From Herpetosiphon geysericola (GTDB taxonomy: Bacteria > Chloroflexota > Chloroflexia > Chloroflexales > Herpetosiphonaceae), in NCBI RefSeq assembly GCF_001306135.1, contig NZ_LGKP01000015.1, positions 1-64,000 of the forward strand: DNA of 64,000 nucleotides, written 5' to 3'. This document shows positions 21,052 through 21,934 of this stretch, in pieces (within the stretch, counting starts at the first letter, position 1; every line of letters begins with the position of its first letter). Position numbers and translations under genes: made by a program. Below the pieces are notes generated by a model that did not search any database, was not told the origin of the DNA, and worked only from the letters and a program-made list of their open reading frames with translations.

Positions 21052-21447
21052 TTAATCTTGGCAATGTTGTAACACACAATGCACACAGGTTTCAAGCGTG
21101 GCGCAACGGCAACGCAGCCCGCGCTGCAACAACTGCTGCACATGGCTGGCCTGTTCGAGCAATTGGCTAAGATCGGCCAATTTTTGCTTGGCTAATTGCC
21201 GCCATAAGCCAGCCAATGGCGCTTGCTGTTGTTCATGTTGAAACAACAATTGAATTTCATGCAGGCTAAAGCCAAGGCGCTGGGTGGTGCGAATAAACGC
21301 TAAACGCTCGAAAATCTGCTGATCGTAATAGCGCCGCCCATTCTCACGGGCAGCAGGCGGCAATAGATTAATTTCTTCGTAATAGCGAATGGTTGAGGCC
21401 TTGATACCAGCCTGTTTGGCGACCATACTGATGCTGAGTTGTTGCAT
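21052..21447 (-). CDS. MerR family regulator with Cys-rich C-terminus
   Basis: A 131-residue MerR regulator: winged helix SISMVAKQAGIKASTIRYYEE, RRYYDQQIFERLAFIR, then a coiled dimerisation helix and a C-terminal CRCATLETCVHC with CxCx5CxxC. That pattern recalls the iron-sulfur site of SoxR or a metal site of other MerR proteins but fits none exactly. A hallmark 19-base-spacer promoter with a central palindrome lies between it and the thioredoxin gene. It is therefore likely a redox or metal switch that controls thioredoxin by untwisting that promoter. Confidence 0.85.
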   Translation of the reverse strand: MQQLSISMVAKQAGIKASTIRYYEEINLLPPAARENGRRYYDQQIFERLAFIRTTQRLGFSLHEIQLLFQHEQQQAPLAGLWRQLAKQKLADLSQLLEQASHVQQLLQRGLRCRCATLETCVHCVLQHCQD

Positions 21448-21470
21448 ATGCCGACCCCTGAAATTGCTGC

Positions 21471-21501
21471 TTGACTTCCAGTTAACTTGAACTTGTAGAC
21501 T
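21471..21501 (+). promoter_or_regulatory. MerR/SoxR-type promoter with operator in the spacer
   Basis: TTGACT (21471-21476) and TAGACT (21496-21501) are spaced by 19 bases, too long for ordinary sigma-70 use and typical of MerR-activated promoters. The spacer holds CAGTTAACTTG, with AGTTAACT as its core palindrome, close to the SoxR operator of enteric soxS, which has a core AAGTTAACTT. The thioredoxin start lies 50 bases downstream. Confidence 0.8.
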
Positions 21502-21553
21502 CCTAACAAGCTAGGGTAATCATGCAATAGCTGTCAAGTGGAGGAACAGATTC

Positions 21554-21895
21554 ATGCCAACCGTGATCGATCAACCAGTTCATATTACTGATGCCAGCTT
21601 TGAAGCCGACGTTTTGCAATCGGCAGCGCCAGTGATTGTCGATTTTTGGGCGCCATGGTGTGTGCATTGCCGCGTAATTGCGCCGATTTTGGCCAAACTG
21701 GCCCAACGCTATGCTGGTGAAATTGTGGTGGCCAAAATCAATACCGATGAGGATGTGCAATATGCCAGCCGTTTGGGCGTGCGCGGTTTGCCAACGATGG
21801 TGGTATTTCAGCATGGCCAAGAGGTTGACCGTTGGATTGGAGCAATGAGCGAAGCAGCGTTTGAGCAACGAGTGCAACGCTTGCTTGGCCGTTAA
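21554..21895 (+). CDS. trxA: Thioredoxin with WCVHC active site
   Basis: A 113-residue single-domain thioredoxin, cytosolic, without signal peptide. The active site reads FWAPWCVHCRVIAPIL, so C-V-H-C replaces the canonical C-G-P-C; the cis-Pro loop GLPTMVVF is intact. The CVHC sequence may shift redox potential towards a more oxidising, DsbA-like value (DsbA has CPHC). GGAGGAA lies upstream. Its promoter appears under control of the adjacent MerR protein, so it is probably induced by oxidative or metal stress. Confidence 0.9.
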   Translation: MPTVIDQPVHITDASFEADVLQSAAPVIVDFWAPWCVHCRVIAPILAKLAQRYAGEIVVAKINTDEDVQYASRLGVRGLPTMVVFQHGQEVDRWIGAMSEAAFEQRVQRLLGR

Positions 21896-21902
21896 AATAT
21901 AA

Positions 21903-21934
21903 TAGGCAGGCTGCTTCTCACGGCGGCCTGCCTA
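21903..21934 (+). terminator. Thioredoxin terminator
   Basis: TAGGCAGGC (21903-21911) pairs with GCCTGCCTA (21926-21934); GTTTATTCTT follows. Confidence 0.75.

Follow-up and report, generated by a model that had tools for sequence, protein, structure and literature searches.

Conserved DNA sites suggest that, in Herpetosiphon and other Chloroflexota, a MerR-family regulator with a five-cysteine C-terminal tail activates an unusual thioredoxin gene and, in the soil Ktedonobacteria, the genes of two quinone/flavin reductases as well. On balance we favor a one-target redox switch, made up of the MerR protein and the trx promoter, that would answer a redox-active or electrophilic signal by producing a non-housekeeping thioredoxin. 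The argument is built on the anatomy of the locus, its conservation, the movement of the operator together with its target, and the membership of the regulon. As it occurs in Herpetosiphon and other Chloroflexota, the system is probably a previously unreported redox-stress switch; searches of the open-licence literature found no relevant report of such a MerR-controlled thioredoxin.

Anatomy of the locus

The window, i.e. the whole 64,000-nucleotide stretch of DNA that was analysed, carries the following features, with the MerR and trx genes separated by an intergenic gap of 106 bp.

21052..21447, minus strand: MerR-family regulator, 131 aa, with a helix-turn-helix, a long dimerisation helix (about residues 78–110) and a C-terminal CxCx5CxxCx4C; the ATG is at 21447
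21471..21501, plus strand: predicted MerR-type promoter/operator, TTGACT-N19-TAGACT, with the imperfect dyad ACTTCCAGTTAACTTGAACT; read from the sequence and conserved with the thioredoxin in relatives
21496..21501, plus strand: -10 element TAGACT, 19 bp from the -35; read from the sequence, with TA...T and identical spacing in 15 of 15 tabulated operators
21540..21544, plus strand: ribosome-binding site GGAGG of trx; read from the sequence, with GGAGG in five of six members of the genus and AGAGG in the sixth
21554..21895, plus strand: thioredoxin, 113 aa, active site WCVHC (TIGR01068, Pfam Thioredoxin)
21903..21934, plus strand: intrinsic terminator with a 13-bp stem and a T-rich tail, directly 3' of trx

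The regulator matches the MerR_1, MerR and MerR-DNA-bind models of Pfam above their gathering scores (1.4e-19 for MerR_1 and 1.1e-11 for MerR-DNA-bind), and both Pfam and fold matches identify a winged-helix MerR domain with a dimerisation helix. The 19-bp promoter spacer with its dyad, seen in the window and in the relatives, falls in the 19–20 bp range of the family. The C-terminus of the regulator, CRCATLETCVHCVLQHCQD, has cysteines at C113, C115, C121, C124 and C129; a preliminary description of this DNA had correctly reported a divergent MerR gene with a C-terminal CxCx5CxxC, overlooking the fifth cysteine (C129). These five residues, together with W82 and G110, are invariant in 17 of 17 aligned five-cysteine MerRs, over an identity range of about 42–98%, and CxCx5CxxCx4-5C is common to the MerRs of this kind in Herpetosiphon, the other Chloroflexales genome, the Thermomicrobiales MAG and Ktedonobacteria. 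In an AlphaFold model (mean pLDDT 88.7), C113 and C115 lie in a loop, and the later cysteines sit either within a short helix or at its end. Structure matches to the model include CadR, PbrR, CueR and SoxR; fold comparison was set aside as a way to tell SoxR from metal sensors, CadR (Z 13.3) and SoxR (11.3) both scoring high on the common fold.

The divergent gene encodes a thioredoxin (NCBIfam TIGR01068, 111.1 bits with a cut-off of 96.8; Pfam Thioredoxin, 2.3e-29) whose active site reads WCVHC, in agreement with the earlier statement that CVHC replaces CGPC. The canonical TrxA motif, WCGPC, is found in the other TrxA of the genome (C9). Given the terminator at 21903–21934, the transcript probably carries trx alone.

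The trx promoter

The -35 element, TTGACT, occupies 21471–21476 and lies exactly 19 bp from TAGACT at 21496–21501, with CAGTTAACTTG in between, just as first described. A search with the full promoter pattern gives a single hit within the window and no hit across 100 shuffles, and the full motif has a single exact match in the 6.14-Mb genome. The preliminary description had also called the central sequence nearly the soxS operator core. As a description this is fair, in that CTCAAGTTAACTTGAG differs from that core at 3 of 16 positions (the native E. coli soxS site is TTTACCTCAAGTTAACTTGAGGAATTATACT), but it is weak evidence alone and was rejected as proof, since 17 of 100 shuffled windows contain an equally good match. 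The further suggestion that the operator is specifically SoxR-like does not hold, because the core is common to several MerR-type regulators here: the same core fronts the unrelated CCPFF gene of a sister group of MerRs and a site in G046.

Two further sites in the window genome (G000) have two mismatches each: the first is the paralogue's own promoter, and the second lies at an aldo/keto reductase gene and has another dyad; a genome-wide operator search found no larger regulon there. A second MerR-type promoter of the genome (L249, G000:C1:122367-122397), TTGACTTTGAGTGCACTCAAAGGTGTAGACT, with a perfect dyad and a 19-bp spacer, lies upstream of an aldo/keto reductase gene with no adjoining MerR gene, and at G000:C45 a MerR gene without a Cys tail (L253) diverges from a short-chain dehydrogenase gene across TTGACTTAGAGCGCGCACGAAGGTTTAGACT, again with a 19-bp spacer. 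A block of the trx leader around AATCATGCAATAGCTGTCAAG (21515–21537) does not vary among the six Herpetosiphon genomes; read on the minus strand it gives TTGACA, which could be the -35 element of merR.

Conservation across the Chloroflexota

The MerR–operator–trx arrangement is kept in all six Herpetosiphon genomes, comprising the window genome and five others; the closest named relatives are H. giganteus, H. aurantiacus and H. llansteffanensis. The thioredoxin of H. aurantiacus has CGHC and those of the other Herpetosiphon have CVHC. The whole unit, with a MerR of 42–53% identity, recurs in another member of the same order, Chloroflexales (G016), in a Thermomicrobiales MAG and in Ktedonobacteria, including Dictyobacter kobayashii, D. 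aurantiacus, D. arantiisoli, Ktedonosporobacter rubrisoli, Thermosporothrix hazakensis and others. Across 15 tabulated operators the invariant columns are TTGACTT, AG, CTT, TA and the final T, with the -10 at exactly 19 bp. This spacing is independent evidence, because the scan for MerR-adjacent sites ignored the -10 element.

The operator remains with the thioredoxin gene where the regulator does not. The MerR gene lies elsewhere in G171, G366, G372, G382 and G388, where a good operator is found directly upstream of trx on another contig, and in G331 a transposase lies between MerR and the operator with trx, the operator staying directly upstream of trx. These partings represent at least two independent separations in addition to the G331 insertion. 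The unlinked sites provide an independent test, because the search pattern that found them had been built from MerR-adjacent sites. Two genomes count against the scheme: G280, an 88% complete MAG, has an operator and a CPPC trx, with no five-cysteine MerR recognised in the incomplete assembly, and in G299 the core is kept beside MerR in the absence of both the -10 and a following trx. The G331 locus (L081, Tengunoibacter tsumagoiensis) has transposase genes splitting the five-cysteine MerR from an intact operator–trx unit, and in Ktedonobacter and Ktedonospora (L055-L058) the five-cysteine MerR gene is now just downstream of an apparent 5S rRNA gene, away from the thioredoxin. With this conservation and the wider regulon described below, the original proposal of a MerR-type promoter with a dedicated MerR regulator and a thioredoxin target is strengthened.

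The regulon in Ktedonobacteria

We scanned 29 Ktedonobacterial genomes of one family (f24) with the strict pattern and obtained 23 sites: 10 at trx, 6 at NADPH-dependent FMN reductase genes (PF03358), 4 at F420H2-dependent quinone reductase genes (F420H2_quin_red, PF04075) and 3 that are the sister MerR's own. Neither a strict site at any other gene nor a match to the reversed control pattern was found in these genomes. Strict sites occur in 11 of the 14 genomes with a five-cysteine MerR versus none of the 15 without (nominal p 1e-5, with kin genomes treated as independent), and in the three exceptions (G299, G305 and G377) a site of weaker form adjoins MerR. A looser search of the 15 genomes lacking the regulator gave two sites, one being the sister MerR's own and the other lying before a CPPC trx. 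In a looser scan that covered 15 genomes, G377 had a further site, in front of an alpha/beta-hydrolase gene. The reductase sites most naturally belong to the five-cysteine MerR, because it is the sole member of its subfamily found at E 1e-20 in G356, G171, G366 and G372. The term "self-contained", which had been applied to the switch, fits Herpetosiphon, where trx alone carries the site, but not Ktedonobacteria, where the operator also fronts the two reductases and often needs to be served in trans.

Recruitment of the thioredoxin

Among 27 thioredoxin genes from 12 genomes, the active site is non-CGPC in 11 of 11 with the operator versus 2 of 16 without it (nominal Fisher p 6e-6, related genomes being counted as independent). 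The operator-bearing genes encode CVHC, CGHC, CPPC, CPHC, CHHC or CTYC, never CGPC; CGPC is present in 14 of the 16 operator-free thioredoxins. The altered active site is likely to mark a shift toward a more oxidising or isomerase-like enzyme, because the cytoplasmic CGHC thioredoxin of P. aeruginosa has a potential of -170 mV and isomerase activity (PMC12830090).

The operator-bearing thioredoxins do not form one clade. In the reduced tree (support 100/99), the Herpetosiphon and G016 proteins fall beside the TrxA of the lineage to which they belong, and the Ktedonobacterial proteins beside Ktedonobacterial TrxA. A single clade was rejected (p-AU 2.9e-5), and masking the CxxC and dropping long branches did not change this (p-AU 2.7e-5). 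On these sequences, therefore, either the target was captured from the local trxA on two or more occasions or gene conversion overwrote it, with CGPC lost each time.

A sister three-cysteine system

The nearest relatives of the regulator are MerRs with CxCx5C only, which lack the CxxCx4C extension and diverge from a different small gene with a CCPFF-like motif. Such pairs occur in Chloroflexota, Bacillota and Acidobacteriota (loci L008, L010, L060, L063-L069, L103, L104, L109-L113, L115-L118, L120, L121 and L125), and no Pfam or NCBIfam family was found for the partner protein of roughly 105 aa. A MerR tree built without the Cys-tail columns, from a short alignment with rough support values, is compatible with a five-cysteine clade (92/87 for a set including one three-cysteine row; strict monophyly, p-AU 0.59). 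Partner identity changes only twice on this tree. One change is L122 (Chloroflexi MAG PMV_1.47), where a MerR on the three-cysteine side that has lost CxC diverges from the gene of a CPPC thioredoxin across an operator of the same type; this pairing is an independent recruitment of a thioredoxin. Cross-talk is possible, because some genomes also contain a three-cysteine MerR whose operator core is nearly identical.

Proposed mechanism

In the MerR family, a dimer bound to a dyad within a 19-bp spacer represses its promoter until the effector site changes, and then untwists the DNA and activates. Here, the dimer would sit on the dyad within the over-long trx spacer, and the resting protein would keep the promoter inactive. 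Modification of the Cys tail would cause MerR to untwist the spacer, as in other family members, allowing RNA polymerase to use the TTGACT/TAGACT elements, and trx mRNA would be made as far as the terminator. The non-CGPC thioredoxin, whose active site is probably more oxidising or isomerase-like, would then mend damaged thiols, and it may return the regulator to its resting state as well.

The signal, the chemistry of the tail and the role of the thioredoxin are the parts of this scheme that we infer. Redox-active or electrophilic (quinone-type) stress is the most likely signal because the Ktedonobacterial operator lies before genes for an FMN reductase and for an F420H2-dependent quinone reductase as well; since only trx has the site in Herpetosiphon, this argument is borrowed from relatives. 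The redox role suggested in the preliminary description draws further support from the Chloroflexota-wide conservation and from a wider regulon that would join thiol repair to flavin and quinone reduction.

For the chemistry of the tail, we rate a switch by thiols or zinc about as likely as a [2Fe-2S] cluster in which one ligand has been relocated; both are sub-cases of the one-target redox switch. A thiol or Zn-thiolate switch, in which the five cysteines would be disulfide-bonded or alkylated under disulfide or electrophile stress with no Fe-S cluster, is a serious possibility that we would stop short of calling probable. It accords with the invariance of five cysteines over so wide a range of identity, with a target that is a thiol-disulfide oxidoreductase, and with companion reductases that act on flavins and quinones, the latter being thiol electrophiles, but it leaves unexplained why a SoxR-type tryptophan and three SoxR ligand positions are retained.

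Those same residues are what recommend a SoxR-type [2Fe-2S] sensor, in which C124, three residues after C121, would replace SoxR C119 as the fourth ligand and redox-cycling compounds would oxidise the cluster to activate trx. We hold this version only tentatively. Profile alignment to SoxR (2zhg) places C113, C115 and C121 on C122, C124 and C130, and the invariant W82 on W91. For two Ktedonobacterial members (75.5 and 88.8 bits) the top-scoring NCBIfam equivalog is SoxR, no protein over the SoxR cut-off was found in the genomes of 31 relatives or elsewhere in Herpetosiphon, and the regulon resembles that of Streptomyces, where a flavoprotein reductase and a quinone oxidoreductase are among the targets of S. 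coelicolor SoxR (PMC4146615). However, the position of C119 is an invariant glycine (G110), giving GxxCxCx5C in place of the four-ligand CxxCxCx5C, and all scores are below the TIGR01950 cut-off of 116.9 bits, the window protein reaching 64.8 bits against SoxR and a higher 76.9 against MerR. The sister group, moreover, keeps just three cysteines. On the curated cut-off and the missing ligand, we rejected the assignment of the regulator as SoxR itself.

A soft-metal(loid) sensor of the CueR/MerR kind, with the thioredoxin helping against metal-damaged thiols, seems improbable. The C113-x7-C121 spacing equals that of CueR C112-C120, CadR, PbrR and CueR are among the closest fold matches, and some sister MerRs adjoin membrane proteins rich in Cys, with a P-type ATPase as a neighbour in G001. 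For the Ser77 of CueR, Herpetosiphon has A79 and many relatives have Ser. Against the metal reading, the cysteine with which the dimerisation helix of ZntR starts (C79) is absent (A79 in the window protein; Ala, Ser, Gly or Pro in relatives), and every metal-sensor equivalog cut-off is missed (TIGR02051, 76.9 of 150.85; TIGR02043, 56.5 of 167.95; TIGR02047, 59.4 of 151.45; CueR TIGR02044, 66.7 of 147.4 bits), as is that of NmlR (NF041849, 40.5 of 175). No efflux pump, metal reductase or metal chaperone gene with the operator was found in the 29 genomes. That MerR and trx are mere neighbours and the dyad a chance or unrelated site is very hard to credit: although the soxS resemblance alone is not significant, the operator stays beside trx when MerR is elsewhere, is unique in the genome and is conserved in 15 operators.

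Implications

The one-target redox switch would link a dedicated stress promoter to atypical CxHC/CPPC thioredoxins, about whose physiological role little is known. As no true SoxR was found in these genomes, the five-cysteine MerR is a concrete candidate for the sensing of redox cycling in Chloroflexales. The five- and three-cysteine sister groups offer a natural comparison of how the chemistry of a MerR Cys tail changes; the three-cysteine MerR with its CCPFF partner is a widespread uncharacterised system in at least three phyla, and the Ktedonobacterial sites make the regulon directly checkable. A bolder view, which we consider doubtful, is that the regulators form a separate, Chloroflexota-specific class of MerR redox sensors with a small regulon, whose tail arose from a SoxR-like layout by the move of one ligand and whose regulon gained its thioredoxin gene from the host's trxA at least two times with CGPC lost each time; the regulator would then have stayed constant while its effector was recruited anew and altered convergently.

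Comparison with known systems

SoxR (E. coli soxS; S. coelicolor, PMC4146615) shares with the window regulator the MerR family, the 19-bp spacer, a AGTTAACTT-type dyad, three of the four Fe-S ligand positions and W91, and the reductase targets of Streptomyces have counterparts in Ktedonobacteria. Unlike SoxR, the window protein has glycine for C119 and the added C124 and C129, scores below TIGR01950, and has a thioredoxin rather than soxS as its target in Herpetosiphon. CueR, MerR, CadR and ZntR have the same fold, dimerisation helix, C-terminal Cys loop and over-long promoter spacer, whereas the present regulator lacks a cysteine at ZntR C79, has a five-cysteine tail and is associated with redox enzymes instead of metal efflux. 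The sister three-cysteine MerR has the same CxCx5C and almost the same operator but no CxxCx4C, and its partner is a small protein without a family. For the effector, Patrx2 of P. aeruginosa (PMC12830090) is likewise a cytoplasmic thioredoxin with a PDI-like CxHC; the window motif is CVHC and MerR/SoxR is absent from the main text of that paper, whereas the CGHC of Patrx2 is exactly the motif of H. aurantiacus.
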